DNA from: Brienomyrus brachyistius
Taxonomy: Eukaryota > Chordata > Actinopteri > Osteoglossiformes > Mormyridae
Direction of reading: 5' to 3'
Assembly: GCF_023856365.1 (NCBI RefSeq)
Contig: NW_026042433.1
Location: 248,001-312,000, forward strand
Length of the DNA: 64,000 nt
Positions 1 through 51,636 of the stretch are shown one piece after another. The translations under genes were made by a program, and so were the position numbers. Below the pieces are notes generated by a model. The model saw nothing but the letters and a program-made list of their open reading frames with translations, was not told the origin of the DNA and searched no databases. Positions within the stretch are counted from its first letter, which is position 1, and each line of letters starts with the position of its first letter.

Positions 1-484
1 CCGTCTAACCTCTGATTACTGCATGACATTTCTGATAATTGATGAGTAGAAGTCTGTTGTCAAATGTCTGTTGCTTGGTGGTAAGATGTTTCCAAAAGGA
101 GAACCACAAAGAGCACAGTCATTTTCAAGGTTATTTCTCACTGGTCAGTGTGAAAGGCTGCATCATTACTATAACGCCGGGCTCAGCACAGTGACTGCAC
201 CTGCGCTGCACTGTAGACCACAAGCCAGGCTGCAGACCATCAGCCCTGAAAGTTAAAACAGGACTCGTATGTGTGTCATGTGTTGTTTAATAAAAATTTA
301 CAGGACAGAACATAGTGGATTCAGTTTCCTTTGCTCTTACACTCCCAGTCCAAAGTGTGGCCACAATGTCAATGCATCTGTCTCTTTTTTTCACTGTGTT
401 ATTCACCTTAATATCAAAAGGCTCCAAAGCAGTACAGTAATGCAGAACAAATAATGTAACTAACAAGGAAGTGGGGAGGTAATG

Positions 485-1432
485 GACAGAAGTGTTGGTT
501 TTTGGTAACTCCACTCCTCTGACCTCCACTGTAATTTTAGGTTCCTTGGAACAATATTGTAAACCAGTCATCACACACCTAGGGGTTAAAGTCGACACCA
601 ACCTTAAGTTTGACACGCAGATAAGATCAGTTGTCAAGTCAAGCTTTTTACAATTGAGGCAGTTGGCCAAAATAAAGCCAATTCTTTCTAAGCAGCACTT
701 TGAGACAGTAATCCACTCTTTTGTCGGTACTAGTTTGGACCACTGTAACGCCCTCTATGTTGGGGTTAGAGGCTCCACTATTGTTCACCTCCAGAAGGTT
801 CAAAATACTGCCGCACATGGAAATATGAGCATGTCTCCCCCATTTTAGACTCACTCCACTGGCTGCCCGTACATTTTAGGATTCATTTTAAAATTCTGTT
901 ATTTGCTTTTAAAGCCCTCAAGGGTCTTGCTCCACCTGACCTCTGTGAGCTGCTTCACCCTTACACCCCCACCTGCTCTCTCAGGTCAGCTGATCAGCTG
1001 CTCCTGATGGTTCCTAAGACTCAGCGTGAGCTTAGAGGGGATCGAGCTTTTGCATTCGCAGCTCCTAAAATGTGGAATGATTTGCCTTTTCACATTAGAG
1101 AGGCCTCTTCTCTTTAAATCTTTAAATCTCTTTTTAAAACTCATCTCTTCTCCTTGGACACCTTGTGAGATATTAACTTTAATAGTAAATTTTATTTCAA
1201 TCTTAGCCTTTTCTTTATTAATATAAATTTTTATATATTCATAAATAATTATTAATATAATATTTTTATTTTAATGGCCATTTACTTACATTTAATGTTT
1301 TGGTTTTTATTAAATTTATTTTAATTCGTTTTTAAGTTTGTGAATATTTTTATTTATTCCTTTGTGCAGCACTTTGGTCGATAAGGTTGTTTAAAGTGCT
1401 TTTTAAATAAAGCTGGATTGGATTAGATTGGA
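485..1432 (+). mobile_element. L2-like LINE 3' remnant (RT C-terminal region)
   Basis: Translation at 492-848 resembles the end of a fish non-LTR ORF2: HLGVKVDTNLKFDTQI, then LDHCNALYVGV and VQNTAA. The frame breaks near 825 and continues in another frame as LDSLHWLPVHFRI, then GDRAFAFAAPKMWNDLP, which is the usual C-terminal block of this LINE group. A stop follows at about 1,115. The 3' end has a short ATTGGATT-type repeat near 1,415-1,432. The element is truncated, frameshifted and not coding. Confidence 0.75.
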
Positions 1433-1639
1433 AGATGGCTCAACAAATCTCTCTCCCAGTATGTAAAATTCGATAGAGGGGCGCAAGGTGACATTCTGTC
1501 AGGGGCCCAGAATTTTTAGCTACACCTCTGTGCTACTGTGTTTTTATTTTTACTCTAGCCATCAACAACTCTGGAGCTGCTATATTGCCACCTGGTGGTG
1601 AAGAGATCAGACAAAATATGTACACATGTAACCAACAGT

Positions 1640-1930
1640 GGGGCGGCATGGTGGTGCAGCGGTTAGCACTGTTGCCTCACACTTCTGGGACCCCGGTTTG
1701 AGTCTCTGCCTGGGTCACATGTGTGTGGAGTTTGCATGTTCTCTCTTGCTAAATTGGCCGTAGGAGTGCATGTGTGTGTGAATGGTGTGTGAATGGTGTG
1801 TGAATGTGCCCTCCGATGGGCTGGCCCCCATCCTGGGTTGTTCCCTGCCTTGTGCCCATTGTTTGCAGGATAGGCTCCGGACCCCCCGCGACCCAGTAGG
1901 ATAAACGGTTTGGACAATGGATGGATGGAT
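1640..1930 (+). mobile_element. SINE-like interspersed repeat ending in TGGA tract
   Basis: Begins GGGGCGGCATGGTGGTGCAG, includes GGAGTTTGCATGTTCTC and ends GGACAATGGATGGATGGATG. This short non-coding family is common in fish genomes; further copies lie at 6,902, 14,652, 52,157, 53,970 and 54,366. The middle (cgtcgtgg...aattgga in the copy at 6.9 kb) is missing here. Right-arm copy at about 49,706-49,991 on the minus strand. I do not assign a formal family name. Confidence 0.75.
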
Positions 1931-2710
1931 GTATGAGGGTGAGTCACAATGACAACAGCTGCTCTGTTGACTTGGTCCCAGGAGTCGTCAGCGTTGGTCT
2001 GCCGGGGCCCCCGTCCTGTCTGTGGAAGCACCCCTCTTGTTGGCTGTTCTCTCTGCCTGGGCCCCCTCTCCTGCTGCCTCACCTTTGGGTTGAAGTGGCT
2101 CCCCATTGCCTCTGTAAAGCTCTTTGTGTATCTTAGAAAAGGGCTGTATACATGTAACATTCATTCATTTATTCGAGGTCCCAGCCAGAAGAGTGCAGTC
2201 CCACACTGTCCCAACAGCCTGAATCAGCTGGATGTTATAGGATTAAGACACTTCCTGCATTAGGCCATTTACCCTCAGTGTATTTCCACATACCCTGACA
2301 GGATGGATGACAATACTGTGGCCCTAATTTTCAATACACAGTTTTCACAGGAGTCTCACCCTCATCCACATTCTCTGCATTCCTTATCTCATGCTTTTTT
2401 GCCACCCGCATCTCCTCTGCCTGCTTTGTCTCATTTTCCCACAATTGAAACACCTTCCAATTTGTCTCCGTTTTAGTTCTACCACATTAATACCTGAGCA
2501 ACCAGTCTGATCCTGTTCCTCTAATTTCAAACGCATCTGGCTTATCTGATTGGGACTGAAGCTGCTGTTTCTAGGAAAACCACATTCGTCCCACTGGGGC
2601 AGGTCTGACGCCGCGTCCTTCCCATATTTCTCCCATAATTGTTGTAGAGAATTTCAGCTGGAGATCTTTCCCAGAAGCAAGTCACTTCACTTTAGCACCT
2701 GTTATCAGTA

Positions 2711-3302
2711 AAAGTCAAGTCAAGTAGGTCTTTAATGTTATTTTTAACTTTACACAGTTGAGTATAGTACAGTTACAAAAGAAACTGTTTCCCTCGGACC
2801 AAGGTGCTACTTAAATTAACACAAGACTAACACATACCAACCTAGCAACATACTGTATGGTGCATAATGAGCAAAAACTGTGCAAACATTGCAGGACAGT
2901 GCAAAAAGAGAGGACAACTGACACCAACGAGCACAAACAGCACAGTAAACCCAATACTGATAAGGTGCAGTTTGGTTGTGCAATGAGGTAGCAATAAAAA
3001 TAAATAAAAGTAACTGTAAACATGGCTACAATAAGATAAAAAAATAGTAGTTAAATAATAAAGTGTGTTAATGAGTGTATGTGTGTGTGGTATCAGATTA
3101 GTCCCTGAGAGTTCAGTAGTCTGACGGCATGGGGGATAAAGCTGTTTGAGTCTGGCTGTAAAGGCCCGAATGCTCCGGGACCTATTTCCAGAAGGCAGGA
3201 GGGTGAAACGATAATGTGAGGGGTGGGTGGGGTCATCCACAATGGTGGTGGCTTTGCGGATGCAGTGTGTGGTGTGAATATCCGTGATGGAGGGGAGAGA
3301 TA
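2711..3302 (-). mobile_element. LINE ORF2 C-terminal and 3' end, part 2 of a split element
   Basis: On the minus strand the sequence reads LPSITDIHTTHCIRKATTI, then HYRFTLLPSGNRSRSIRAF, which is the typical C-terminal region of a fish non-LTR reverse-transcriptase protein. A 3' tail with TAAAGACCTACTTGACTTGAC follows. It continues the fragment at 4,131-4,680; the two were separated by insertion of the solo LTR at 3,303-4,130. Right-arm copy at 48,338-48,929 (+). Confidence 0.75.
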
Positions 3303-4130
3303 TGTTAGGGTTATCTTCTTCTGAAGATGCGCTGGAAACAAACCAGTCTCTGAACACAGAACAACACAGACAGCTGTGATGACGTTTTACTTGCTGCAAG
3401 GTGTAGGGAATCCACTTGCAGAGTCTCCGCAGTTTCAGCAAAATGATGGTTTATTGAACAGCAAAAATAATACAATGTAATACAGTGTAGAGACACACCG
3501 GGTACTGAAAGGCAGCTCAGACACAAATTGAAGACAGTTCTTCACCCCCCTTTATACCCAAAAAGGCCCTCCCCACCAAGGTGTTGTGTGTAGGTGTTGT
3601 GAGTGAATTTACATATAAAGAGTGACCCCCTGGAGTGTGAGGATCCTGAGACGGGGACAGGACAGAACAGGGTAGAGACTTTTATGATCATTGTAATTAA
3701 ATTCTTATCACCTTATCTTATCCTTATCACCCTAGTGGTGCCAACTGGAACCCCCATTCTCTCCCTGGCTTCCCCCATGATCATAAATTCCTAACATTGT
3801 CTGCATTCAAATGATCAACCAAGAACCTTGGGGCATTTTTACCACTTTTCCTTACAAAGGGAAGCCCGGTCCTGACCTCGAGGTGTCAGCCTCTCAGTCG
3901 AACTCGGCCAACTTCGAAAAAGGAACTCCCCTCGCAGTGTCTTTTATTGAGGTACACAAACAGGATATGCAACTGACATTGAACATTGTTTGTCACCATA
4001 TATGGGGTGGAAATATTCAAGCGACAGTTCTTGAGACGTGTTATTGCTCAATTAAGATCAAGCTGCGGCAGGGTGTTGTTTCCAAGCGTCTAGCAAAATG
4101 ATAATAAAAAAAGTACATATTTCTCTAACA
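3303..4130 (-). mobile_element. Solo LTR (828 bp) inserted in a LINE
   Basis: The element starts TGTTAG and ends CTAACA, and is flanked on both sides by the 5-bp target duplication TATCT (AGATA on the plus strand, at 3,298-3,302 and 4,131-4,135). Reading on the minus strand there is a TATAAA box (plus-strand 3,551-3,556) and a polyadenylation signal AATAAA (3,450-3,455), which set the orientation. There is no internal retroviral coding sequence, so it is a solo LTR left by LTR-LTR recombination. Family not assigned. Confidence 0.85.
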
Positions 4131-4680
4131 AGATACTCCAATGATTTTCTCACCTGTCATCACTATCTGTTGTAGGGACTTGCGATCTGAGGCGACATAG
4201 TTCCCAAAGCAGACTGTGATGCAGCTGCTCAGGGTGCTTTCAACAGTTCCCCAATAGAGTGTGAGGATGGGAGATGGGCTTTTCTGAGCTTCCGTGGAGA
4301 GTAGAGGTGCTGCTGTGCTTTCCTTACTATGGAGCTGATGTTGAAGGACCTGGTGAGATTCTCCGCCAGATGGACAACAAGGAATCTGGTACTCTCTACG
4401 ATCTCCACAGATGAGCCATCGATGTGCAGCAGAGAGTGGTCACTCTGTGCTTTGTGTTCTTCTAAAGTCAACAACCATTTCTTTGGTCAACATTCAGAGA
4501 CAGGTTGTTGGCTCTGCAGCAGTCCGATAGTCATCACACTTCCTCTTTGTATGCTGAGTCACCGTTTTTATTGACGAGACCCACAGTCTTGTCATCAGCC
4601 TGATGTTGATGATGTGATTCGAAATGTGCATTGCTGCTCAGTTGTGAGTCATCGGAGTTAACAGCAGTGGGCTGAGCATA
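4131..4680 (-). mobile_element. LINE ORF2 fragment, part 1 of a split element
   Basis: Minus-strand translation includes HIDGSSVEIVESTRF, HLAENLTRSFNISSIVRKA and YSPRKLRKAHLPSS, a well-known block between the RT domain and the C-terminus of fish LINEs. An upstream ADD-region remnant is frame-broken. It leads directly into 2,711-3,302 once the LTR is taken out. The first base of this part belongs to the AGATA target duplication. Right-arm copy at 46,960-47,509 (+). Confidence 0.75.
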
Positions 4681-4685
4681 AAGTC

Positions 4686-5166
4686 CTGGGTTCCTGCTAC
4701 AGCGTCTGAGCAGCCGCCTTCGTCGCCCGTAGCTCCTGCGCAGCCCGAGCAGCCGCCTCCGCTGCCCCCTGCGGCCCTAGAACCCGAGGCGCTCCCTCTG
4801 CCTCAAATGACTGTGCCCCCTGGGGCTCTTGTTCCTGGCCCCACTCCTGTCCCTGACCCAGCTCCAGACTTTCCTGCCCTAGTCCCCGAGGAGGTCCCGG
4901 ACAGTCCGACCACCGTGTGTGCCACGCCCCCTGATTATCCACGTGTGCTTCCCTGATCGTACCCAGCTGTGTCCGATTATTTTCAATCAGTCCTGTCTAT
5001 TTGAGTCCATGTCTTACTAGAGTTCAGTGTCCGTCATTGAAGTCCGTCTGCGTGAGATGTTTCCTGCACCCCGTGTTCCTAATAAATCCCCGTATTTCCC
5101 CGTATCCTGCCTGCCTTGCCTGTTTCCTGCCCGTCCGCCGCTCCCGTTAAACGGCGATCGTGACAC
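4686..5166 (+). repeat. Proline-rich GC-rich repeat with TGTCACG-type end
   Basis: The first part reads as Pro/Ala/Glu-rich peptide (PPLPPAALEPEAL-like) and reaches CATPPDYPRVLP and a stop near 4,956. A non-coding tail with AATAAA (about 5,081) follows and ends CGATCGTGACA. The large repeat at 23,757-24,990 has the same peptide ending and related tail, so they are one family. The TGTCACG terminus read from the other strand suggests LTR-retrotransposon 3' sequence, but no LTR pair is visible. Right-arm copy at 46,474-46,954 (-). Confidence 0.55.
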
Positions 5167-5789
5167 AAGGCACACGCACATCAACAAGTACCAATGCAGC
5201 AAATACAGATGAACAATTTAGGAGGAATACTAGTCAAAGGAAGGAAGAAAAGCAGCCCACCCTATCTCATGGTCACGGACACAAACATCAGGGAGTGTTA
5301 TGAAGAAGACACCACACTTAGCACCATTGGTTTTACGCAGTGAATTACACCAGAGAGAGTTTTTACATTCTAGCTGTGTTACATAACATTCCTCAGCCTT
5401 CAGGTTTTTTCCACACAATGCAGGACACGCAGGGGTGCCAAACAAAACAGCGGAACTGCAGTGTAGCCAATTATTTGTTTCAGTAGTTTTAAGAAAACTA
5501 GAACATAAAATGTTTGTTTTACTTAGGTAAAAGTCCAGTTGAAACAGACTTTATTTTTAAAAAGTTAGATTGGCTTTAAGTGATGAAACATGTTACTTGT
5601 GTTAATATTGCTTAATGAAGTGTAGGTGACATAGAAGCATGCAGTTTGATGTTTGGGGGCTGTAGTTTTTAATGGGACTATTTGAATATGGAGTACTAGT
5701 GTTGTACTTTTTAAGGGTACAGCACACGAAAAAAATACAGAGTATTAAAAGTGCCTCTCTTTAAAGGAACTGAGTTATCTTAGTGTATT
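5167..5789. other. Unassigned interval (right-arm mirror 45,851-46,473)
   Basis: No convincing ORF or repeat. It holds a short open stretch (5,230-5,445 minus) with several cysteines but no recognisable motif, then AT-rich sequence. I see nothing else. Confidence 0.5.
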
Positions 5790-6290
5790 TTACATCACAT
5801 ACACTCTCGGTCCGCTGGGGGAGTCCATCCCGCTGTAGTTGGAGAATGCTGCCATCAGTCGCTCGGTGTAGCAGGATTTACCAGGCTCCTGTTTAAACTG
5901 ATGCATCATGCCCCAGTCCATGCGCAGGAGGACCAGTCTCTGAAGGGCTGTCGCATGGTGAGGTCTGTTCTGCCTGGGATCCAGCAGGTCACTGGCAATG
6001 TCCTTCAACTCCTTCATCTACAGTGTCAGATGAGCAAACCTCATCTCCCCCTTGAGGATTTGGACAAACCAACATAGGGGCAAGAATTTCTGCTACCTCG
6101 TCCTGCTGCCTGAGTGTTTCGCCACGGCACTTCATCACCGAGAAGGAGGTAGAGTCGGGTGCTGAATGGTTATGATCCTCGTCTGCAGGGGGGAGAGGGG
6201 AAGGGGCAGGGGAACCACTTGCTACTCCTCCCTCGGCGGCATAAGGAGGAAGCTGCTGTTTGGGCAGCAATGCTTGGGCAGGAGCCACAC
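5790..6290 (-). pseudogene. Endogenous retrovirus-like gag fragment (capsid region), broken
   Basis: The minus-strand reading starts with a Pro-rich, acidic stretch and changes frame near 6,010. It continues into a capsid-like block with a QFKQEPGKSC...YTERL...F..YSGM pattern, which resembles the C-terminal capsid region of retroviral gag (the YxERL...F..hSG signature). The right-arm copy has 6 more bases (two residues, E and C) just before YTERL. There is no pol beside it and the ORF ends at 5,790. It has the same orientation as the gag start at 8,916-9,317 and may be the same provirus, though 2.6 kb of other repeats lie between. Degraded relic. Confidence 0.5.
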
Positions 6291-6847
6291 AGTTTATTTC
6301 TGGGTATCTAATTAGCGGACACCATTAGGTCCCTTCAGGGGCTCCACAGACAAACTCATTGACATAATAGAATTGTCACAGAAAAATTCTTTGTCACATT
6401 CTCAGTCGACATAGACTGTGTGCTGTTTACATATTTTTGGCACAAACGAAATCTCATATGCATATTGACATATCTTTGGCACAAGTGGACCTCCATCACT
6501 TTAAAGAGGGTAAACTCTGGTCAGGAAATTTACGACGTCAGAATAAACTGATTTTTAACAGAAGTAACTGACATGCCCTAATAAGGAAATGCATACAATC
6601 AGAATACAATATCTGTGGTTTTTAACAGTGGTAACAATCTGATAATGAAAGGAATCAGATCAACATTTCTATAGCATGTAACAGAGCTTGCTCCCCTCCA
6701 GAACTCATTGTTCCAGTAGTTATCTGAAATCATCTGCAGGAGCTATTCTTTTATTTGTATATTAAGCGTAATTATTCATGAATATTATTGATGATGTTTA
6801 TTTGTTCAATGTTTTTATTTATTCGTATTTATTGTTTATAATATAAT
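6291..6847. other. Unassigned AT-rich interval (right-arm mirror 44,783-45,345)
   Basis: No ORF over 60 codons and no recognised repeat. It lies between the gag relic and a TA microsatellite. Confidence 0.5.
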
Positions 6848-6848
6848 G

Positions 6849-6889
<41 letters not shown>
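6848..6889. repeat. TA dinucleotide microsatellite
   Basis: About 20 TA units. The right-arm counterpart (44,751-44,782) is about 6 bp shorter. Confidence 0.95.
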
Positions 6890-6892
<3 letters not shown>

Positions 6893-6901
6893 TTGTAATA
6901 G

Positions 6902-7256
6902 GGGTGGCATGGTGGTGCAGTGGTTAGCACTGTTGCCTCACACCTCTGGGACCTGGGTTCGAGTCTCCGCCTGGGTCACATGTGTGTGGAGTTTGCATGT
7001 TCTCCCCGTGTCGTCGTGGGGTTTCCTCCGGGTACTCCGGTTTCCCCCCACAGTCCAAAAACATGCTGAGGCTAATTGGAATCACTGAATTGCCCATAGG
7101 TGTGCATGTGTGAGTGAATGGTGTGTGAGTGTGCCCTGCGATGGGCTGGCCCCCCATCCTGGGTTGTTCCCTGCCTCGTGCCCATTGCTTCCGGGATAGG
7201 CTCCGGACCCCCCGCGACCCAGTAGGATAAGCGGTTTGGAAAATGGATGGATGGAT
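6902..7256 (+). mobile_element. SINE-like repeat ending in TGGA tract, full-length copy
   Basis: The most complete copy of the family: GGGGTGGCATGGTGGTGCAG head, GGTTCGAGTCTCCG (Pol III box B-like), TTTGCATGTTCTCCCCGTG, TTTCCTCCGGGTACTCCGG, and a GGATAGGCTCCGGACC to GCGACCCAGTAGGATAAGCG tail followed by TGGATGGATGGA. Inserted beside the TA microsatellite. The box B-like motif fits RNA polymerase III origin; no box A was verified. Confidence 0.75.
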
Positions 7257-7806
7257 AGTATTGTAATACTTGAAACGAGAGGTACTGCCTGCCTTAGTGA
7301 TCTTTACTATTGTGTAAGTGTATTCCCACCTGTAGGGGGCAGCAATGGTTGTTATTAGAGGTGCTGAGATTACGCGGCTCAGGGCTGAAGGTGCAAAGTG
7401 AAACAGTCATTGACCGTATTTGCCGTGTGTGATGGTGTCTGCATATCGACCCTTTCGAGCCAAACAAACCAGTTCAAAGTACTGTGCGTTAATATATCAT
7501 ATGAATAAATCCACTCAAGAACTAAACTCAATATCGTATCCTCATCATTCAACGCGTCCGACTTTTCCACCTCTTACCACAAGGCAGTGGATTACATGGG
7601 GAAATTACAAACAAGGAGAATTTAATCTGTTTTTCCTCTACATTGTCGTTATTCAGAATATTACAGACTATGAACAAAAACGGACAATGTAAGAAAATAA
7701 AAAAATGTGTATGAAAGCTAGAGTATTTTTGCAGTGGTGAACACTAGCTGGTTTATGTACTAGCTCACACTCAAGAAACAGCATAAATGCTACTCATACA
7801 CAGTTG
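7257..7806. other. Unassigned interval (right-arm mirror 43,826-44,375)
   Basis: No recognisable gene. At 7,331-7,344 it has CCTGTAGGGGGCAG, one mismatch from a CTCF core motif. Otherwise nothing seen. Confidence 0.5.
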
Positions 7807-8029
7807 GGGGGCAGGGGTCAGTCCTTGTGCCTGTAATGAGAAGGTCACCAGTTGAAACTAACCCAGCCACAGCACGTCTGTGGGTCCTTGAGCAAGGCCC
7901 TTAACCCCCAGCTCCCTGGGCGCCCCAACAGGCAGCTGCACTTCGCGGACAATTTACTCCACAAAGAGTAAGTTGAGGGAGACATAAAAAACAATTTCCC
8001 CACAGGGATTAATAAAGTCCATCCATCTA
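7807..8029 (+). mobile_element. tRNA-derived SINE
   Basis: Head with AGGTCACCAGTTGAAACTA (decayed box B), then GCACGTCTGTGGGTCC, TTGAGCAAGGCCCTTAACCC, CCAGCTCCCTGGGCGCC and a tail GGGATTAATAAAGT. A better-preserved relative lies at 53,521-53,745. Right-arm copy at about 43,603-43,825 (-). Confidence 0.75.
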
Positions 8030-8915
8030 TGGAATATTATTTAGCACTATCTAACGTAGAATATAAGAATTATGATTTTATAAAAAGTATGCCAAATATC
8101 CATGATATAATCATTACAATGTAAACATTGTAATGTAATCAACACAATGGAACCAACTGAGTATGTATTTGCACCTTTTGTTAGTCTAAGTTTCTGTTAG
8201 CTACTTTATGTTAGTCATGAATCTATGAATATTCACTTTTATTAGCGTATATTTCATCATTATGTAAAAGGACAAATATATTATCAACCTTTTAGTGAGA
8301 CAATGTGTAAACGGCTGAAAATACCAAGGTTTACTACTGAAGGAAGGGATTCACCTGAGTTCACCAGAAGTTCATGGCTGAGTATTTTTAAAAAACCAAG
8401 TGGAGCTGCTCGCGCCACTATTATGTTCAACCGAGAGACCAAACGGTAAAAGAAATGACTATCAAACTTATCACCTAGAGGTGAACATAAATCTATACAA
8501 ATATCACCTGCATGCACATTACTTCTTTTACAATAACCAACTCCTGATCCATACTGTTAGTCGTGAAAAAAATAACTATTGTGTACATAGAGGCCCTGTG
8601 TAAAAAGATAACTGCCAAGGAAAAGATCAAAAACATTTATTTCAAGGATTCAAAGTTTTTATGGTCATGTACAGTGTACAGTGCAGTTCTTATTTGATTA
8701 ACTTGAATGTCTTCACAGACAAGACGATTAAACAAATAAAGCAGCGCAACATTACAGTAACTAACAACAAACAAACAAAGTTCACGAGTACTATTACAGT
8801 ATTCATATCATTTATTTAAATTTAATTTTACCAAGTAAATTAATTGAAAAGCAGTTACCACTGCTTTACCTGCTTCTCGGGAGAAATAGCAGATATACAA
8901 ACGTCATGTATGTAA
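8030..8915. other. Unassigned interval with a LINE-like 3' tail (right-arm mirror 42,717-43,602)
   Basis: At about 8,650-8,740 the minus strand resembles the tail of a fish non-LTR element (TTATTTGTTTAATCG...TGTACATGACCATAAAAAC). The rest is AT-rich with no gene that I can support. Confidence 0.4.
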
Positions 8916-9317
8916 CTAAAATCTTAAGCCAATAAGGGCAAAGTTGTGTCGTAATGCCCACGCTCGCCTCTCCTGCTCCTGTTTCTCTCCCTCTTTTCTC
9001 CACTTTCCCCGTTGTAACACCCTCGCTTTCACTAGCTCGCGTCCTGCCTCGTCTTTCAGGCCGCTATGCTCCTTTACCTTACGCCATAAAAGTGCTCCTA
9101 ATGATTGCCTATCCTCCGGTTTGTATCCTGCACATTTCACTGCAATCCCCATACGCTTCCACGCATCTGCCGTCTCTCTCTCTCGGCCCTTTTCCTGAGC
9201 TGTTTTTCCCACTGCTATTTTTAACAGCTGTATCTGTTCACACAGAGGCTTCCACCGCCCGCGCACTGGTGGACCCCAGCCCCCGTCATCCAATTCTCTA
9301 TCAAATTCGTGATCCAT
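8916..9317 (-). pseudogene. Endogenous retrovirus gag N-terminal ORF (matrix-like), truncated
   Basis: A 133-codon ORF starting with ATG (MDHEFDRELDDGGWG), charged and rich in Arg, Lys and Glu. It lies about 0.9 kb downstream of the tRNA-Pro primer site on the same strand, where a gag start is expected. It ends at a stop at 8,916, where the sequence changes to unrelated AT-rich DNA, so the rest of gag, pol and env is missing. I do not see a diagnostic matrix motif; identity rests on position and composition. Right-arm copy (42,315-42,716) encodes the same peptide. Confidence 0.5.
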
Positions 9318-9587
9318 GTTTTAGCTTATCTGACCTACACTTCTCCTGATCCAACAACCCCTGTGCCTCAGGGGATGGATTTATCCACCCACACTTAGTA
9401 CACCTCTTAGTTGTCTCTGAGTGCCCCACTAACAAACACCACCAAAACCTAAACCCACACTCACACACAATCACCGAACCACGCAAAACAGTAAATAGTA
9501 AATGGTAAACCCACTCACACTGGAATAGTGAATAGTAAACACGCACTTACACACGCGAAATAGTAAATAGCGCTGTGTACACTTTTT

Positions 9588-9871
9588 GGTACCTTGGGAC
9601 CCCACGTCTCGGGACTTTTTAGCCCGATGCTTTGAGTACTCTAATCTCGGGACTTTAACCCAATACTTTGAGGACTTTCACCTCGGGACTTCAACCCGTT
9701 TTAAGGAGGATGAACCTTACTCCCTTTTTGGTACCTTGGGACCCCACGTCTCGGGACTTTTTAGCCCGATGCTTTGAGTACTCTAATCTCGGGACTTTAA
9801 CCCAATACTTTGAGGACTTTCACCTCGGGACTTCAACCCGTTTTAAGGAGGATGAACCTTACTCCTCCGAC
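9588..9871 (-). repeat. 142-bp tandem duplication in the retroviral leader (left arm only)
   Basis: Two head-to-tail copies (9,588-9,729 and 9,730-9,871), both starting GGTACCTTGGGACCCCACG. Each copy contains about three internal sub-repeats around CTCGGGACTT. It lies between primer site and gag, the leader region that in simple retroviruses holds RNA dimerisation and packaging signals. The right arm has one copy (about 41,903-42,044). Confidence 0.93.
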
Positions 9872-10231
9872 CAATTTAGCTGTTCGGGGGTCCTGAATTT
9901 CCCGGGACGCTCAATCCCAGCTGTCCTACTGCTCATCAGCAGTAGGTGGGTTGCCAAACCAAGGACACGACAGTGGACTTAAATCCTCCGCCAATAGGTT
10001 CTACTACGGGGTCCCGTACCCTCTGTTCACAGGCCGTCAGAGCTACGCACAACAGGCCCTCGCCACAATATTGGTCGACAGATCCTGAGACACTTCCAGC
10101 CACTTTATTTAGCAATCGCCAATATGCAGAATTCGATAAAACAGGCTCTGCTCACCTAATTGCTGGGCGCCCGTGGCTCTCTGCGTCCCCAAGACCTCGT
10201 CTCTGGTTCCAATCCAAACAACCTTCTCCTC

Positions 10232-10249
10232 ATCCCGGACGAGCCCCCA
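10232..10249 (-). promoter_or_regulatory. Retroviral primer-binding site matching tRNA-Pro
   Basis: The minus strand reads TGGGGGCTCGTCCGGGAT, the 18-nt complement of the tRNA-Pro 3' end used by murine leukaemia-type retroviruses. It starts three bases after the LTR's terminal CA, a normal spacing. Right-arm copy at 41,525-41,542. Confidence 0.93.
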
Positions 10250-10252
10250 AAT

Positions 10253-10744
10253 TGTTGGAGTTAGACTCCACCGAGTCCGTTGATGAGGAAAAGATGCATT
10301 CGTGAGGCAAAGGATGGTTGTAAGTCAGCTCTCTTTATTTGTTGTACAGATCGATCCGGGAGCCACTCTCAGATGCACAAAAGTACACACCAAGGGAAGC
10401 TCAGCTCCCTGTTGTCTGTGTCTAACTTTTATACCCCGTTTAGGGCGTCTACTGTTCTTGTTGGTATCTTTCCAGTTGACGTAACATATAACTATTGTTT
10501 GGACATTGCTGGCGTTAGTCCCCACACCCGTTCCCTTTGATCTTATCTTGTTATGTTGCAATTTAGCAGCGTCAGCGACCCCCTCCCTTGTCATGTCCCC
10601 GCAGGTCAAGCGTAAGCTTAATGTCACCACGAGCCTGTCAATGTACCTTCTGCTTTCCGGAATTTACTTACACAACGAGGAGGGCTGGAGCCCCCCTTCT
10701 CTTCCTGCCTGTGTTCCAGTTTGTTCCCCTTTCTCAGTGTGACA
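10253..10744 (-). mobile_element. Endogenous retrovirus 5' LTR (about 492 bp)
   Basis: Minus-strand LTR starting TGTCACACTGAG (tentative) and ending ACTCCAACA just before the primer site. It has TATAAAA (plus-strand 10,427-10,433) and AATAAA (10,334-10,339) in proper U3-R order. The tRNA-Pro primer suggests a gamma- or epsilon-retrovirus-like element. No second LTR copy, pol or env is present in the window. The 5' boundary is uncertain because I see no target duplication. Confidence 0.8.
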
Positions 10745-13265
10745 AAGTTTAGCACGCAACCTAGCCCCCCTTCATTCGCCATTTATATTTTCCGCCGGGC
10801 ACCCGAAATGCTGCCACACAAAAGATTTAAAAGTGTCTGGGGTATCTACTATAGTAATTTAGTCAGATGCCAACATATTCACAGCAGCTAATTTGCAGCG
10901 CATTCGTGAAACCGCTTTTCGCTCCAACGAGAAACTCATGTTGTAATATCGCGAGATCTCGTGACACGCGTTTCACTCCCACTTCTTAGTAACAGTCATG
11001 ATTTGATAAAGTGACAACCTGCGTAATAATTGGTAATACATAGAGTTTGCTATTGTTCAGGCTAGCAGACTGTTATGGCTTGAGGTTAATGGTGCCTGTT
11101 ACTTGTGAATTTTCACATTTGCAGGGATCTTCTGCCTCGTGAACGTGAAACGGATAATTATGCTAAAAGAAGAAAAAAGCAGAACTGCAATGTGTGTAAG
11201 GCTGGTGCTGATTTTTCAGTCTGAACACAGTAAAATTTATACAAATTACCTGTATTCAAACTTGTATTCTTTATATAGTTTGGTTAATTACTATTTAAAA
11301 GTTTTATCTGCGCTCCATTGTATAACTTGTACTGGAGATTTGTATGTACTTTTTGATTGGAAATGGTTAGTTGTATATACATTGAATATTTTTATGATTA
11401 ATTTCTTTGTTTATTTAATTTGGCAACAGATTTGCACTTTTAGAAGTATTGCTGTTCATTTTTGTGAAAGTTGTTACTAAAAAAAACAAAAGAAGCAGAC
11501 TTGTGTAAATCCTATATTGGCCGTGTATTCTTCCTGTAGCGTAGTGACAGCTTTTTGTACGGAAGCCGTGAACGGCTGTGCTTGCAAATATATTTTCTTC
11601 TGAATAATTAGAAGGATAAGCATATTTTGTCGCCGCCGCGAGATAGTCATGCCATACACAGCTCTGCTCGTTTTTGTACTGTTACTGTGTTACTTAATTT
11701 GCGCATCCATGAATTTAACGTTGACATTAAGTCAACATTGACATTGACAACGTTGACATTAAGTGTTGCACCTATCTAGTGTTTTACTGTGAAGGGCATG
11801 TTATATCTCGTCTCTAAGTCGCACTATGGTCCAGGGGAATGCTATGTCATATCAGAACATGTGTCGATTATGTGGCAATATAAATATTTTATATTACTGT
11901 CAGTTTTAGTTTCAGAAATCCATCATTTGAGAAAAAAGGCCAGTCACGACAAATATATATGGAATATAACAACAGAGTTTAGGCAGCTGTATTTGTTTAA
12001 GTGTAAAGATGCACATAGAAACATGCATGAGCTCATCTGAGAATAAACTGAATGCAATGAAGATTTGTGACTCCTGCTGGAAAATGCGAATAGTGGCAGG
12101 GTCTTCAAGTAGTACATTTGTCTGAGAGTCAATTAATATTAGGAAAGGCACAGTTTTTTTTCAATGGCGCTAATTATCAAGAAGGAAATGGAGTACCCCA
12201 GCACCTGGTTTACGGGCACTGGAAGCTCCAGTATCAGTCAGACTTTCATGTAAGTATATGTGTGTTTAATGACTTAGCAGTTGGTTAAAAAGTAGACTTG
12301 TGCATGTTTCATCTTTACCAGGGGCAGAGGGGAAACTCAATAAATAGCCTTCTCTCACACTTCCAGACCTGCAGAACTGAGCATGTCCCCTGGTTTTGTG
12401 CATATGTCTGTAGGCTTTGAGTTTTTCCTATGGGGGCTTCAATTTCCTCCCAGAGTACAAATACGTGCAGATCAGTTGCATTGGGGAGTCCATACTGTGA
12501 TGCTGAGTGGGTGTAGGAGGAGATTGAGAGATGAAACTCCGGATGATTTACTCCCTCGGCTAACTAACCAGAACAGGATCGTACCAATACCAAAATGATA
12601 AGTTTATAAATGTTTTTCACTACCCTGATTCATTCAGTTATTTATGTTTGTTAATTCCACCTCCCAAGCAAATACATAAATAAACAAACAAACAAATATT
12701 CAGGGGGAATGTGTCATAGGTGATAGAATCAGTGGATGAATCTAAAGAAAAAAAGTTGTGATTTCTTTCTCTCCAAAACACAATGCAAAAAACTCTTAAG
12801 TTAGGTAAGACATTGAAATTTTATGACAGTAGCATGATGCAGAGGAACAACAGAAGGAAAAATCTAACTAAACCTGAGTCAACTAGGACTAATTACACTA
12901 AATTAAGTGGAACACACAAAATACCTAAAACCACTTAATAAACAAGCAAGAAATATTACATTTGATTAACTATACTGATGCCTGAGGGAAGTTCTTGTGC
13001 TTAATGCAGCAAGTATGTACAGCTGCAGAGACACTACACATAGTGCAAATAAATTAAAAAGTATACAGTACACACACTGATTCCTGAAAAATCAAAATAC
13101 CATGGAATACTAATGAAATACTTATCAGGATGATGATGACGATGATGATGATAATAATAGAAATAATAATGAATTAGTTTAGGGTATTATGCAATTGACA
13201 TGTACAATTAAAAAAGAAATTGCACCAGACATTTCCTGTGGCAAAGAAGGGTTGCTTTGTGCCAC
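10745..13265. other. Unassigned AT-rich block (right-arm mirror about 38,509-41,029)
   Basis: Several short AT-rich ORFs (11,139-11,480 plus; 11,789-12,040 plus; 12,383-12,598 plus) without recognisable motifs. It contains AAAC-type simple repeats near 12,680-12,700. I see no exon structure or known transposon and support no gene here. Confidence 0.5.
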
Positions 13266-13266
13266 G

Positions 13267-13500
13267 TTACTCAAGTCAATTCACTTTATTTTGTATAGTG
13301 CATTTTCACAGCCTTACATAGTCTCAAAGCACTTTACTTTGTCCCTGCCCAATTGTCCCAGTGAGCAATATCAAGCCTGAAAAATTATAAAGCCACATTG
13401 GCAAGGATAAACTCAGTCATAGTAAGAAACCTTTGGAGGAACCAGAGTGAAAGGGGGAGCCCATCCTCCACAGGGCAGAAGTCAGGTTAACAAAGTCCTG
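13267..13500 (-). repeat. Fish interspersed repeat tail (GGATGGGCTCCCCCTTT type)
   Basis: The minus strand has GAGGATGGGCTCCCCCTTTC, then CTCCAAAGGTTTCTTACTATG and a GCACTATACAAAATAAAGTG tail, a motif set commonly seen in fish non-LTR or SINE tails. A related piece lies at 20,850-21,060. Right-arm mirror at about 38,274-38,507 (+). Confidence 0.5.
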
Positions 13501-13867
13501 ATCTATATGGTTCAATTAGTTAAGTCCGGATGTAAATACAGAATAACTGGCAGCAGGGCACACAGGAAAGACGTCACAGGCAGGAGGGCAGGCAGGAGGG
13601 TGGCACAGGCAGGACGTAATGGGCAGGAGGGCGGGCAGGCAGGGCAGCACAGGCAGAAGGGCTGGCGGGTAGCCAGAACTGTTTTGCCACTGCAGTCTGT
13701 TTTACAGTTTCATCTGCATTTGTTCCCACAAGGAATAACAACAGCTAATTTATGAACATGCTGCTTTTCAGAAAAGAAGTTTAATTTCTAGGAACATGAC
13801 CAGTGCAAACATTTAGTGTTGACGGTTCTTTGTAAAATGGATGTTCTGTACTTTTATTGATCTGTCC

Positions 13868-13905
13868 GTCCATCCATCCATCCATCCATCCATCCATCCA
13901 TTTTC
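13868..13905. repeat. CATC tetranucleotide microsatellite
   Basis: Run of CATC units. The right arm (about 37,877-37,906, as TGGA) is two units shorter. Confidence 0.9.
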
Positions 13906-13980
13906 TAACTACTTCTGATGAAGTTCCGGGTTATGAGGTATCCTGAAGCCCAGGCAATATGGGACACACACACACACATA

Positions 13981-14242
13981 GGGTATACCTATCTTTATGG
14001 GGCCCGCTCATTCACTTCTATGGGATAAATGCTAACGCTAACTATGACAAGCTTAACCCCCACCCTGCCCTAACCATAACCATAAGTAACCCAGCAAAAT
14101 ACAAGAGGTTTTGCATTTTTAGTTTTTCCATAGCAGTCACAGATTTTTATAAAATAGAGTTTTCCTGGTTTTCGGTTTCGTGGTCCCCATAAGGGAAAAA
14201 AAACAGGTATTTATCACGTTATGGGGTAGGATAGGTATACCC
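13981..14242. mobile_element. MITE with 13-bp terminal inverted repeats inside a CA microsatellite
   Basis: Starts GGGTATACCTATC and ends with its exact reverse complement (14,230-14,242); inner termini are also partly complementary (TATGGGG against CCCCATA). The 262-bp body has no coding sequence. CA repeats lie on both sides (13,964-13,978 and 14,249-14,280), so it probably inserted into, or seeded, a CA tract. Family not assigned. Right-arm copy at 37,540-37,801. Confidence 0.75.
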
Positions 14243-14243
14243 G

Positions 14244-14279
<36 letters not shown>

Positions 14280-14651
14280 CACACAAATGGATAGATCAAC
14301 ACAGTTACTATGGATGTCGATCCTGCAATAATGAGACAGAACTATCATACTTAATAGGATCATATCCCTAGTTCTACATATGCATAATTATATTTTAAAA
14401 AGATCCCACGCACCCAGCACATGAGATGTTTGAACTTCTGCTCTCTGGTAAACGTTACCGCAGTATGCATTGCAGAACAACCAGATTTAATAAGACCTTC
14501 TACCCCCAAAGCCATCAGAATACTAAATGCTAATGAACATAAGTTTATGTGAAACCCTACTCTCTCTTCCTCTCTGTGCACTTTATTACCACAACTGGTA
14601 TTAAGTTTACTTTTTATTTATACAGTATAGTGCAATAATATAATCACGAAT

Positions 14652-14795
14652 GGTGTGTGTGTGTGCCCTGTGATGGGCTGGCCCCCCATCCTGGGTTGTT
14701 CCCTGCCTCGTGCCCATTCCACATTCCGGGATAGGCTCCGGACCACCCGCGACCCAGTAGGATAAGCAGTTTGGAAAATGGATGGATGGATATAA
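14652..14795 (+). mobile_element. SINE-like repeat, 3' fragment
   Basis: Only the last ~145 bp of the family (GTGTGCCCTGTGATGGGCTG to GGAAAATGGATGGATGGA). It ends directly against a copy of the LINE-flank sequence also found at 17,510. Right-arm mirror at about 36,989-37,132 (-). Confidence 0.75.
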
Positions 14796-14995
14796 CTAAC
14801 ATAAGACAGACATTACACCTAACAAACAATAAACACGAAATAAAGGAGTGGACACAAAAAAAATGTAATGCAATGACCAGATTTAACACCTGGATTATGT
14901 CCCCCCTTAGTCTCCTTTGCTCGAGGCTAAACAGATTCAGCTCAGCTAACCTCTCCTCATTAGACATTCCTCTAAGACCAGGAATCATTCTCCCA
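14796..14995 (-). mobile_element. CR1-like LINE fragment with internal deletion
   Basis: Minus strand encodes MIPGLRGMSNEERLAELNLF and FSLEQRRLRGDIIQV, the same block as in the longer copy at 17,623-18,096. It then jumps to the shared 3' flank (AAATCTGGTCATTGCATT...). About 285 bp present in the longer copy are missing, with TTAA shared at the join. Right-arm mirror at about 36,789-36,988 (+). Confidence 0.75.
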
Positions 14996-15785
14996 GCTAA
15001 GCAAGCCTGAGTCCGGCTTCCACTCCCCCGATTCCCAGCAATGTTAACTTGGAAGGGCGTGTTCTGTATGCACAACTGAGACAACCCAGGTGGAGCTCAG
15101 CTCATCGGCTGGCAAAATTGCCTTCAGGTATCACCCACCCTAGTGAGAGTCCAAGCTAGGGCTGTTCTCAGAACTCACCCTAAACGAGGTCCTGCTCAAA
15201 AGTTGTAATGACCGCCTGAGGTACCTGTGAGCCTTGCCCGTAATGAGTCAGTGGGTGTAGCCGAGCTGACACGCTTTTGGGCGTCCAATTGCTGAGAACT
15301 CCCCTTCGGTTTTGACAAACTGTACGATCGCAAGCAGTGACAGCAGAGCCACAGACAAGCTCAACCAGCAGAGAGCGAATGGTAAGCACCCAACACCCGA
15401 AGGGCTCAACTGATCACATCCAAACGACTTCCTGATGGGATTGTGTACGTAACTGGTTTACTGTTGTTAATAGTGGTTGAACTTCTATGCAAGTCCCCTT
15501 GTTGGGGGAGAGGGAATGAATGAAAGCATAAGGTGAAATAAAACCTAAAATAAATCAAAAAGGTTAAACAGAAATCAAACCAAATGAATTGTGTTTCTTC
15601 TTCAATTGTAAACATAAATTAGTTATGCAACAATAACCTAATTGGATGTTAATGTATTGTGATCAAATTGATTTAGTCCATGAAGTTAATTCCTGCTTTC
15701 AGGCAAGAACCTGTGTGTCCAATTATGCGTGTTGTATCACCGCAGTTGACCACCAGAGACCCAACTCAGATGTTGTTAACCTACT
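14996..15785. other. Unassigned interval (right-arm mirror 35,999-36,788)
   Basis: No gene or repeat recognised. Short ORFs at 15,180-15,389 and 15,406-15,615 (minus) lack recognisable motifs. Confidence 0.5.
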
Positions 15786-16446
15786 ATGGCGGACCACTAG
15801 AGGTGCAATTTCAATGGAGTGGCACTGCTATGGCTTGCCACTAGAAGCGCAATTTCAAAATGGAGTGGTAGTTCTATGCCTGACCATCAGGGGAGCAATA
15901 TCGAAATGGGGTCGTAGTTCTATGCCTGACCACTGGAGGCGCGATTTCGAAATGGAGTGGTAGTTCTATGCCTGACCACTAGAGGCGCAATTTCGAACTG
16001 GAGTGGTAGTTCTATGCCTGACCACTAGGGGCGCAATATCGAAATGGAGTGGTAGTTCTATGCCTGACCACCGGGGGCGCAATATCAAAATGGAGTGGTA
16101 GTTCTATGCCTGACCACTAGAGGCGCGATTTCGAAATGGAGTGTTAGTTCTATGCCTGACCACTAGAGGCGCAATTTCGAAATGGAGTGGTAGTTCTATG
16201 CCTGACCACCGGGGGCGCAATATCGAAATGGAGTGGTAGTTCTATGCCTGACCACCGGGGGCGCAATATCGAAATGGAGTGGTAGTTCTATGCCTGACCA
16301 CCGGGGGCGCAATATCGAAATGGAGTGGTAGTTCTATGCCTGACCACCGGGGGCGCAATATCGAAATGGAGTGGTAGTTCTATGCCTGGCCACTGGAGGC
16401 GCAATTTCGAAATGGAGTGGAAGTTCTATGCCTGACCACTAGAGGT
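15786..16446. repeat. 46-bp minisatellite (about 14 units)
   Basis: Head-to-tail units built on TAGTTCTATGCCTGACCAC, then a variable CTAGAGGCGC or CGGGGGCGC core, then AATWTCGAAATGGAGTGG. Several unit types occur, and the right arm (35,338-35,998) has the same order of types, with scattered substitutions. The core CCACYRGRGGCGC resembles the CTCF binding core but is one base shorter. No ORF through it is credible. Confidence 0.93.
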
Positions 16447-18115: not shown

Positions 18116-18116
18116 A

Positions 18117-35337: not shown

Positions 35338-35998
35338 ACCTCTAGTGGTCAGGCATAGAACTTCCACTCCATTTCGAAATTGCGCCTCCAGTGGCCAGGC
35401 ATAGAACTACCACTCCATTTCGATATTGCGCCCCCGGTGGTCAGGCATAGAACTACCACTCCATTTCAATATTGCGCCCCCGGTGGTCAGGCATAGAACT
35501 ACCACTCCATTTCGATATTGCGCCCCCGGTGGTCAGGCATAGAACTACCACTCCATTTCGATATTGCGCCCCCGGTGGTCAGGCATAGAACTACCACTCC
35601 ATTTCGAAATTGCGCCACTAGTGGTCAGGCATAGAACTAACACTCCATTTCGAAATCGCGCCTCTAGTGGTCAGGCATAGAACTACCACTCCATTTCGAT
35701 ATTGCGCCCCCGGTGGTCAGGCATAGAACTACCACTCCATTTCGATATTGCGCCCCTAGTGGTCAGGCATAGAACTACCACTCCAGTTCGAAATTGCGCC
35801 TCTAGTGGTCAGGCATAGAACTACCACTCCATTTCGAAATCGCGCCTCCAGTGGTCAGGCATAGAACTACGACCCCATTTCGATATTGCTCCCCTGATGG
35901 TCAGGCATAGAACTACCACTCCATTTTGAAATTGCGCTTCTAGTGGCAAGCCATAGCAGTGCCACTCCATTGAAATTGCACCTCTAGTGGTCCGCCAT
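35338..35998. repeat. 46-bp minisatellite, right-arm copy
   Basis: Mirror of 15,786-16,446: same unit number and order, a few substitutions (for example CCACTAGTGG in one unit near 35,615). Confidence 0.93.
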
Positions 35999-37506
35999 AG
36001 TAGGTTAACAACATCTGAGTTGGGTCTCTGGTGGTCAACTGCGGTGATACAACACGCATAATTGGACACACAGGTTCTTGCCTGAAAGCAGGAATTAACT
36101 TCATGGACTAAATCAATTTGATCACAATACATTAACATCCAATTAGGTTATTGTTGCATAACTAATTTATGTTTACAATTGAAGAAGAAACACAATTCAT
36201 TTGGTTTGATTTCTGTTTAACCTTTTTGATTTATTTTAGGTTTTATTTCACCTTATGCTTTCATTCATTCCCTCTCCCCCAACAAGGGGACTTGCATAGA
36301 AGTTCAACCACTATTAACAACAGTAAACCAGTTACGTACACAATCCCATCAGGAAGTCGTTTGGATGTGATCAGTTGAGCCCTTCGGGTGTTGGGTGCTT
36401 ACCATTCGCTCTCTGCTGGTTGAGCTTGTCTGTGGCTCTGCTGTCACTGCTTGCGATCGTACAGTTTGTCAAAACCGAAGGGGAGTTCTCAGCAATTGGA
36501 CGCCCAAAAGCGTGTCAGCTCGGCTACACCCACTGACTCATTACGGGCAAGGCTCACAGGTACCTCAGGCGGTCATTACAACTTTTGAGCAGGACCTCGT
36601 TTAGGGTGAGTTCTGAGAACAGCCCTAGCTTGGACTCTCACTAGGGTGGGTGATACCTGAAGGCAATTTTGCCAGCCGATAAGCTGAGCTCCACCTGGGT
36701 TGTCTCAGTTGTGCATACAGAACACGCCCTTCCAAGTTAACATTGCTGGGAATCGGGGGAGTGGAAGCCGGACTCAGGCTTGCTTAGCTGGGAGAATGAT
36801 TCCTGGTCTTAGAGGAATGTCTAATGAGGAGAGGTTAGCTGAGCTGAATCTGTTTAGCCTCGAGCAAAGGAGACTAAGGGGGGACATAATCCAGGTGTTA
36901 AATCTGGTCATTGCATTACATTTTTTTTGTGTCCACTCCTTTATTTCGTGTTTATTGTTTGTTAGGTGTAATGTCTGTCTTATGTTAGTTATATCCATCC
37001 ATCCATTTTCCAAACTGCTTATCCTACTGGGTCGCGGGTGGTCCGGAGCCTATCCCGGAATGTGGAATGGGCACGAGGCAGGGAACAACCCAGGATGGGG
37101 GGCCAGCCCATCACAGGGCACACACACACACCATTCGTGATTATATTATTGCACTATACTGTATAAATAAAAAGTAAACTTAATACCAGTTGTGGTAATA
37201 AAGTGCACAGAGAGGAAGAGAGAGTAGGGTTTCACATAAACTTATGTTCATTAGCATTTAGTATTCTGATGGCTTTGGGGGTAGAAGGTCTTATTAAATC
37301 TGGTTGTTCTGCAATGCATACTGCGGTAACGTTTACCAGAGAGCAGAAGTTCAAACATCTCATGTGCTGGGTGCGTGGGATCTTTTTAAAATATAATTAT
37401 GCATATGTAGAACTAGGGATATGATCCTATTAAGTATGATAGTTCTGTCTCATTATTGCAGGATCGACATCCATAGTAACTGTGTTGATCTATCCATTTG
37501 TGTGCA

Positions 37507-48929: not shown

Positions 48930-49705
48930 TACTGATAACAGGTGCTAAAGTGAAGTGACTTGCTTCTGGGAAAGATCTCCAGCTGAAATTCTCTACAACA
49001 ATTATGGGAGAAATATGGGAAGGACGCGGCGTCAGACCTGCCCCAGTGGGACGAATGTGGTTTTCCTAGAAACAGCAGCTTCAGTCCCAATCAGATAAGC
49101 CAGATGCGTTTGAAATTAGAGGAACAGGATCAGACTGGTTGCTCAGGTATTAATGTGGTAGAACTAAAACGGAGACAAATTGGAAGGTGTTTCAATTGTG
49201 GGAAAATGAGACAAAGCAGGCAGAGGAGATGCGGGTGGCAAAAAAGCATGAGATAAGGAATGCAGAGAATGTGGATGAGGGTGAGACTCCTGTGAAAACT
49301 GTGTATTGAAAATTAGGGCCACAGTATTGTCATCCATCCTGTCAGGGTATGTGGAAATACACTGAGGGTAAATGGCCTAATGCAGGAAGTGTCTTAATCC
49401 TATAACATCCAGCTGATTCAGGCTGTTGGGACAGTGTGGGACTGCACTCTTCTGGCTGGGACCTCGAATAAATGAATGAATGTTACATGTATACAGCCCT
49501 TTTCTAAGATACACAAAGAGCTTTACAGAGGCAATGGGGAGCCACTTCAACCCAAAGGTGAGGCAGCAGGAGAGGGGGCCCAGGCAGAGAGAACAGCCAA
49601 CAAGAGGGGTGCTTCCACAGACAGGACGGGGGCCCCGGCAGACCAACGCTGACGACTCCTGGGACCAAGTCAACAGAGCAGCTGTTGTCATTGTGACTCA
49701 CCCTC

Positions 49706-49991
49706 ATACATCCATCCATCCATTGTCCAAACCGTTTATCCTACTGGGTCGCGGGGGGTCCGGAGCCTATCCTGCAAACAATGGGCACAAGGCAGGGAAC
49801 AACCCAGGATGGGGGCCAGCCCATCGGAGGGCACATTCACACACCATTCACACACACATGCACTCCTACGGCCAATTTAGCAAGAGAGAACATGCAAACT
49901 CCACACACACATGTGACCCAGGCAGAGACTCAAACCGGGGTCCCAGAAGTGTGAGGCAACAGTGCTAACCGCTGCACCACCATGCCGCCCC
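49706..49991 (-). mobile_element. SINE-like repeat, right-arm copy
   Basis: Mirror of 1,640-1,930. It differs by about 10 bp in the GTGTGTGAATG tract, which is shorter here. Confidence 0.75.
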
Positions 49992-50201
49992 ACTGTTGGT
50001 TACATGTGTACATATTTTGTCTGATCTCTTCACCACCAGGTGGCAATATAGCAGCTCCAGAGTTGTTGATGGCTAGAGTAAAAATAAAAACACAGTAGCA
50101 CAGAGGTGTAGCTAAAAATTCTGGGCCCCTGACAGAATGTCACCTTGCGCCCCTCTATCGAATTTTACATACTGGGAGAGAGATTTGTTGAGCCATCTTC
50201 C

Positions 50202-51149
50202 AATCTAATCCAATCCAGCTTTATTTAAAAAGCACTTTAAACAACCTTATCGACCAAAGTGCTGCACAAAGGAATAAATAAAAATATTCACAAACTTAAA
50301 AACGAATTAAAATAAATTTAATAAAAACCAAAACATTAAATGTAAGTAAATGGCCATTAATAAAATAAAAATATTATATTAATAATTATTTATGAATATA
50401 TAAAAATTTATATTAATAAAGAAAAGGCTAAGATTGAAATAAAATTTACTATTAAAGTTAATATCTCACAAGGTGTCCAAGGAGAAGAGATGAGTTTTAA
50501 AAAGAGATTTAAAGATTTAAAGAGAAGAGGCCTCTCTAATGTGAAAAGGCAAATCATTCCACATTTTAGGAGCTGCGAATGCAAAAGCTCGATCCCCTCT
50601 AAGCTCACGCTGAGTCTTAGGAACCATCAGGAGCAGCTGATCAGCTGACCTGAGAGAGCAGGTGGGGGTGTAAGGGTGAAGCAGCTCACAGAGGTCAGGT
50701 GGAGCAAGACCCTTGAGGGCTTTAAAAGCAAATAACAGAATTTTAAAATGAATCCTAAAATGTACGGGCAGCCAGTGGAGTGAGTCTAAAATGGGGGAGA
50801 CATGCTCATATTTCCATGTGCGGCAGTATTTTGAACCTTCTGGAGGTGAACAATAGTGGAGCCTCTAACCCCAACATAGAGGGCGTTACAGTGGTCCAAA
50901 CTAGTACCGACAAAAGAGTGGATTACTGTCTCAAAGTGCTGCTTAGAAAGAATTGGCTTTATTTTGGCCAACTGCCTCAATTGTAAAAAGCTTGACTTGA
51001 CAACTGATCTTATCTGCGTGTCAAACTTAAGGTTGGTGTCGACTTTAACCCCTAGGTGTGTGATGACTGGTTTACAATATTGTTCCAAGGAACCTAAAAT
51101 TACAGTGGAGGTCAGAGGAGTGGAGTTACCAAAAACCAACACTTCTGTC
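50202..51149 (-). mobile_element. L2-like LINE 3' remnant, right-arm copy
   Basis: Mirror image of the element at 485-1432, with the same frame break and the same RT C-terminal motifs. It belongs to the inverted duplication and is not a separate insertion. Confidence 0.75.
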
Positions 51150-51636
51150 CATTACCTCCCCACTTCCTTGTTAGTTACATTATTTGTTCTGCATTACTGT
51201 ACTGCTTTGGAGCCTTTTGATATTAAGGTGAATAACACAGTGAAAAAAGAGACAGATGCATTGACAGCAGTTGTGGCCACACTTTGGACTGGGAGTGTAA
51301 GAGCAAAGGAAACTGAATCCACTATGTTCTGTCCTGTAAATTTTTATTAAACAACACATGACACACATACGAGTCCTGTTTTAACTTTCAGGGCTGATGG
51401 TCTGCAGCCTGGCTTGTGGTCTACAGTGCAGCGCAGGTGCAGTCACTGTGCTGAGCCCGGCGTTATAGTAATGATGCAGCCTTTCACACTGACCAGTGAG
51501 AAATAACCTTGAAAATGACTGTGCTCTTTGTGGTTCTCCTTTTGGAAACATCTTACCACCAAGCAACAGACATTTGACAACAGACTTCTACTCATCAATT
51601 ATCAGAAATGTCATGCAGTAATCAGAGGTTAGACGG

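Follow-up and report, generated by a model that had tools for sequence, protein, structure and literature searches.

Does the mormyrid fish Brienomyrus brachyistius carry a large and young palindrome, or have the two alleles of a single locus been joined head to head in its genome assembly? The question is raised by a stretch of 64,000 bp from contig NW_026042433.1 (the window, which was analyzed at its whole length), as its first 51.6 kb consist almost entirely of two inverted arms that meet within an array of a 29-bp minisatellite. The palindrome is present in the sequence and its arms are possibly longer than 25 kb. The evidence leans slightly towards a real palindrome, which would have been made by a strand switch at a short microhomology, over two alleles joined head to head.

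The inverted arms and the turn between them

Comparison of the window with itself, together with a global alignment of the arms, confirmed the near-perfect inverted duplication of about 51.6 kb that had been noticed in the original prediction. In detail, the minus-strand self-comparison aligned positions 9,724-25,556 with 42,050-26,229 (99.75% identity over 15,833 columns, which take in part of the array) and positions 1-9,723 with 51,636-41,909 (99.55% over 9,746 columns). The global alignment pairs 1-25,004 with the reverse complement of 26,781-51,636: 24,822 columns are identical, 11 carry substitutions and 12 insertions or deletions (indels) occur, the largest of which spans 142 bp. The left arm has a length of 25,004 bp and the right arm one of 24,856 bp, with a G+C content of 43.7% each; over 24,833 aligned bases the 11 substitutions give a divergence of 0.044%. 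A match of such length and identity needs no chance model, and none was run. The first 51.6 kb of the window are composed of the following features:

1-25,004, plus strand: left arm, from self-comparison and global alignment, its left limit being the edge of the window
25,005-25,555, plus strand: 29-bp minisatellite of the C type with 19 identical forward units
25,551-25,567, no strand: turn ATCTGA-GCCAA-TCAGAT at which the array reverses, with the loop in its C-type form
25,557-26,780, minus strand: 29-bp minisatellite of the T type, a 6-base partial unit of the C type followed by 42 reversed units
26,781-51,636, minus strand: right arm, from self-comparison and global alignment

As the match between the arms continues unbroken as far as base 1, its left limit is set by the edge of the window or contig and 25 kb is a minimum arm length. 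The window contains no N, which means that the join bears no marked scaffold gap. With two inverted arms of more than about 10 kb and an identity above 99%, the structure falls under our working definition of a large palindrome. A short spacer between the arms is a further criterion for such palindromes, and here the spacer is the 1,776-bp minisatellite at 25,005-26,780, which reverses within itself.

The two halves of this array differ in type and in length. The sixth base of the unit is C in 19 of 19 forward units and T in 42 of 42 reversed units; 41 of the latter are identical, and the remaining one, located at the flank, carries one further change. The centre is asymmetric, with 551 bp of forward units versus 1,224 bp of reversed units. 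Both array types contain ATCTGA and TCAGAT, separated by a loop, within the length of one unit. These 6-base words are the longest that the array has in common with its reverse complement, and the turn sits on them. Compared with its own reverse complement, the C-type array reaches an identity of 56% at best in an ungapped comparison, whereas the T type was compared by shared words only. A random join of the two arrays would show a 6-base microhomology in 14 of 841 phase pairs (0.017), a test that was picked after the junction had been seen. When folded as single-stranded DNA, the 58 bases tested at the junction form a stem of 23 bp with a loop of 5 nucleotides, and the first two units of either array fold modestly (z -2.23 on the left and -1.76 on the right, where the pair includes the one variant unit).

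The apex array is adjoined by a proline-rich open frame of 360 amino acids (26,946-28,028), and this stretch is mirrored in the left arm. The frame has no match in Pfam, where our scans covered ten frames of the window and, in a second round, five window frames together with the product of the gene described below and four relatives of it.

Differences between the arms

Besides the array, the arms differ by the 11 substitutions and 12 indels of the alignment, and two kinds of tandem repeats among the sequences concerned are listed here:

9,582-9,865, plus strand: exact tandem duplication of 142 bp in the left arm only; the right arm has this sequence just once, near 42,000
15,784-16,445, plus strand: 46-bp minisatellite of the left arm, 662 bp, equal in length to the right copy
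35,339-36,000, minus strand: 46-bp minisatellite of the right arm, 662 bp, with 3 substitutions relative to the left copy

Transitions account for 9 of the 11 substitutions, and 6 of the 11 fall on CpG positions, which make up 5.0% of the aligned sites (binomial P 5.5e-6). Three substitutions are located in the 46-bp minisatellite and one in a TA repeat, and all were kept in the count; the substitution at position 6,857 of the left arm, next to an indel within a TA tract, is alignment-dependent. Substitutions occur at about 0.2 and 1.2 kb from the array. Ten of the 12 indels occur at homopolymers (2) or tandem repeats (8, including the 142-bp duplication), the exceptions being those after 366 and after 5,870. 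The 46-bp minisatellite has the same length in both arms, while the copy numbers of the two apex half-arrays are more than twofold apart and each of their units is distinguished by one base.

Such marks are left by ordinary mutation of methylated DNA in the germline. The arms accordingly represent two separate DNA lineages that carry real mutations and not one molecule read twice, and both alleles and paralogues fit this result. The C/T difference of the array in combination with the substitutions at about 0.2 and 1.2 kb also shows that a single allele folded on itself does not account for the arms. Differences of the germline polymorphism type are what an allelic misassembly would contain, and true paralogues would show them equally.

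As changes in homopolymer length make up only 2 of the 12 indels, the quality of the consensus looks high. Sequencing noise was considered as a cause of the differences between the arms and is ruled out by this low share of homopolymer indels and by the 6 of 11 substitutions at CpG positions. Miscalling related to methylation could mimic part of the CpG signal, but many more sites than six would then be expected.

Origin of the palindrome

In the reading to which the evidence inclines, a young inverted duplication with arms of at least 25 kb would have arisen in a fish genome when DNA synthesis folded back on itself, or moved to the opposite strand of the sister or the homologous chromosome, within the 29-bp minisatellite. 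The 6-bp inverted repeat carried by the minisatellite units would have served as the switch point. The arms would afterwards have acquired ordinary CpG and microsatellite mutations, and the half-arrays would later have diverged in length and unit type, or would have differed from birth if the switch took place between homologues.

The position of the turn on the longest microhomology available and the fold of the junction with its 23-bp stem support such an origin. The lack of any N and the best ungapped identity of 56% make a simple overlap error unlikely, and a molecule with the turn has probably been sequenced; the simplest explanation of the contig is likewise that molecules containing the turn were probably read. 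For palindromes of the human Y chromosome an arm similarity of more than 99.9% is given (PMC3723533), and the divergence of 0.044% fits this value. The presence of the turn in the chromosome of the animal, its formation by a strand switch and any gene conversion that may have occurred between the arms are what we infer.

Several points weigh against this reading. A fold-back of a single molecule predicts half-arrays that are equal and identical at birth, but here they differ in every unit, so that a true fold-back needs either turnover at a later time or a homologue as the partner in the switch. The end of the left arm coincides exactly with base 1 and, if this is the start of the contig, the end matches a path through an assembly graph that runs up one allele and down the other. 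Chimeric joins between alleles can also arise by routes other than a simple overlap, and for this reason our preference is only a slight one. Furthermore, the four kcna7a genes of Brienomyrus brachyistius itself are suspected to represent two paralogues plus an assembly error (PMC12188244), and false duplications are reported to be more common in unphased assemblies (PMC9516821).

It is accordingly conceivable that the palindrome is an assembly artefact, in which the two alleles of one locus were joined at the minisatellite, the common sequence resumes at 51,637 and the gene described below is single-copy in this stretch. We take this possibility seriously without considering it the probable one. 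The differences between the arms do resemble those between haplotypes, as they consist of scattered CpG transitions, length changes of micro- and minisatellites and an array with 19 C-type units on one side versus 42 T-type units on the other, and the exact end of the palindrome at base 1 of the window would be explained. The proportion of false duplications in previous assemblies has been put at 3.7-15.9% (PMC9516821). On the other hand, the forward and reversed arrays have no common word of more than 6 bases, and the identity of the C-type array to its reverse complement does not exceed 56% without gaps. A join of scaffolds can normally be recognized by N, of which there is none, and the turn is placed on the longest microhomology available. 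An overlap or gap that would let an assembler join opposite strands is thus absent (longest common word 6 bases, 56% identity, no N), although this test leaves out other routes like chimeric reads between alleles and gap filling.

A divergence of 0.044% is also low for two alleles, unless the heterozygosity is low. In Campylomormyrus compressirostris, another mormyrid, a heterozygosity of 0.96% was estimated from k-mers (PMC10029256). In a model without recombination, 24.8 kb would show no more than 11 differences with a probability of 0.049 at a heterozygosity of 0.96%, 0.148 at 0.3%, 0.377 at 0.1% and 0.605 at 0.05%. The argument from heterozygosity in favour of a palindrome is weak, and the chance of 0.377 at 0.1% counts on the side of joined alleles.

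The original prediction had named a true inverted duplication and joined alleles as the two alternatives, and these are the right ones. The reason that it gave for preferring the assembly join, the same flank on both sides of the array and no sequence from its far side, does not bear out this preference, as it fits either explanation: in a true palindrome with its turn within the array, one flank would likewise occur twice and a far side would be missing. The interpretation is thus supported in part.

A narrower form of the strand-switch reading would place the switch between homologues, at a minisatellite that forms hairpins, and would yield a germline palindrome whose arms began as the two alleles, whose half-arrays keep their own unit type and which doubles a lineage-specific cystatin-like gene. 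In all its particulars this scenario is rather unlikely.

It could also be argued that one molecule folded back and was carried into the contig, either as a chimera of whole-genome amplification, through a missed SMRTbell adapter or as a template-complement nanopore read. Snap-back of a polymerase would likewise place the turn at a short inverted repeat, which would speak for such an event. Palindromic reads amounted to 47.8% and 43.6% in two amplified Arabidopsis samples and to 11.8% in gorilla, compared with 0.5% in a non-amplified control, and an uncorrected gorilla assembly is reported to have shown inverted duplications (PMC6218980). However, a folded molecule predicts identical arms and equal half-arrays, whereas 19 versus 42 units with a fixed base difference are seen. 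The substitutions at about 0.2 and 1.2 kb from the array, the 142-bp duplication in one arm and the substitutions of the CpG type are likewise at odds with it, and the arms are not identical apart from sequencing error. A single-molecule fold-back read was rejected in view of half-arrays of unequal length and different type, and a one-molecule artefact in general is very unlikely. Even less is to be said for a variant of the strand-switch reading in which the structure is real but much larger, with the sequence to the right of 51,636 mirrored to the left of base 1, up to which the match is indeed unbroken.

Gene content and comparison with known systems

Each arm contains one copy of a gene with similarity to cystatin-like genes of mormyrids:

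18,849-20,839, plus strand: cystatin-like gene of the left arm, coding exons 18,849-19,028, 19,331-19,435 and 20,054-20,182
30,946-32,935, minus strand: cystatin-like gene of the right arm, coding exons 32,935-32,756, 32,453-32,349 and 31,730-31,602

The coding sequence of three exons (137 amino acids) is intact and identical in both arms. A candidate alternative last exon, recognized by a sequence match, lies at 20,729-20,839 on the left and at 31,056-30,946 on the right. The gene at 18,849-20,839 has two possible ends, a read-through to a stop in exon 3 or a fourth exon, and both forms occur among Brienomyrus isoforms. Duplication of the gene in the animal would depend on the palindrome being real.

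Of 21 candidates from protein searches, six were relatives; they belong to Brienomyrus brachyistius and Paramormyrops kingsleyae, and none of them is identical to the product. The identity is 84% over 100% of the 137-amino-acid product for isoform X17 of LOC125725295 from Brienomyrus brachyistius, 70% for LOC111837273, and 47% and 44% for two proteins named cystatin-like. The similarity over the coding exons assigns the gene to a mormyrid cystatin-like family. Four Brienomyrus products are each listed with a contig of 1,645,448 bases, which suggests a local gene cluster there. The label "chemerin-like", under which the gene was first described, could not be confirmed, as the relatives are named "cystatin-like protein" or "uncharacterized protein" and neither the 137-amino-acid product nor the four relatives matched a Pfam family up to an E-value of 0.1; no chemerin was directly compared with the product. 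A 98-amino-acid frame of exon 1 matched the PDB chain 7ue2_A (RPB_PLP3_R6) at 4.3e-05, but none of its stretches passed individually, and this match was treated as uninformative.

Outside these features, the window contains no match to an RNA family at the gathering score. Among the ten frames of the first Pfam scan two had matches, one to RVT_1 with 26.8 bits (below the cut-off of 29.6) and one to Exo_endo_phos with 27.1 bits (cut-off 24.5). The frame at 52,568-53,062 gave 15 weak coiled-coil matches, all below the cut-offs. This weak coiled-coil frame, the endonuclease piece (Exo_endo_phos) and the reverse transcriptase piece (RVT_1) lie on the plus strand at 52,568-57,443, a region that we take to be the remains of an element of the long interspersed nuclear element (LINE) type. 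A long TTA/TAA trinucleotide tract at 53,736-53,947 is partly its own inverted repeat. The open frames at 60,808-61,527 and 33,679-34,161 are related (85% DNA identity over 488 bp), and the sequence is mirrored again in the left arm; one of the copies is located outside the palindrome. These frames have no Pfam match and presumably represent the end of another retrotransposon.

If the palindrome is real, it is a large and young fish palindrome with a readable scar of its birth, as the 6-bp inverted repeat of a minisatellite unit still marks the turn. It would then bear on the origin of palindromes and on whether arms are kept alike by gene conversion outside the sex chromosomes of mammals, and a gene of the mormyrid cystatin-like family would be doubled by it. 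An artefact, in contrast, would exemplify how a gene can be falsely duplicated with no gap in the assembly, an error that would escape checks based on gaps.

Fold-back inversions that arise by microhomology-mediated strand switching have their turn, as is the case here, at a short inverted repeat that encloses a small loop. They are known mainly as somatic events or from yeast, whereas the present structure would be a germline one with a minisatellite at its centre. False duplications from unmerged alleles in vertebrate assemblies also consist of two near-identical copies with allele-like differences, but here there is no N gap, the turn is clean and lies at a 6-bp microhomology, and the divergence is low. 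Palindromic chimeric reads, which result from amplification or missed adapters, are described as containing an inverted copy around a short turn (PMC6218980), as found here; in contrast to them, the arms of the present palindrome carry independent mutations and the arrays are unequal.

A narrow literature search on fish palindromes yielded nothing on the topic by title, which is not evidence of absence. The structure also resembles the palindromes of mammalian and willow sex chromosomes, for which inverted arms of more than 10 kb (PMC5997626), arm similarities above 99% or 99.9% (PMC8981503, PMC3723533) and genes within the arms (PMC5997626, PMC7023750) are reported, all of which are also found here. 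The differences are that the present palindrome is known from assembled sequence and without evidence of sex linkage, and that its spacer is a minisatellite that itself reverses. The structure would belong to a known kind, the large palindromes, with an unusually legible turn point.

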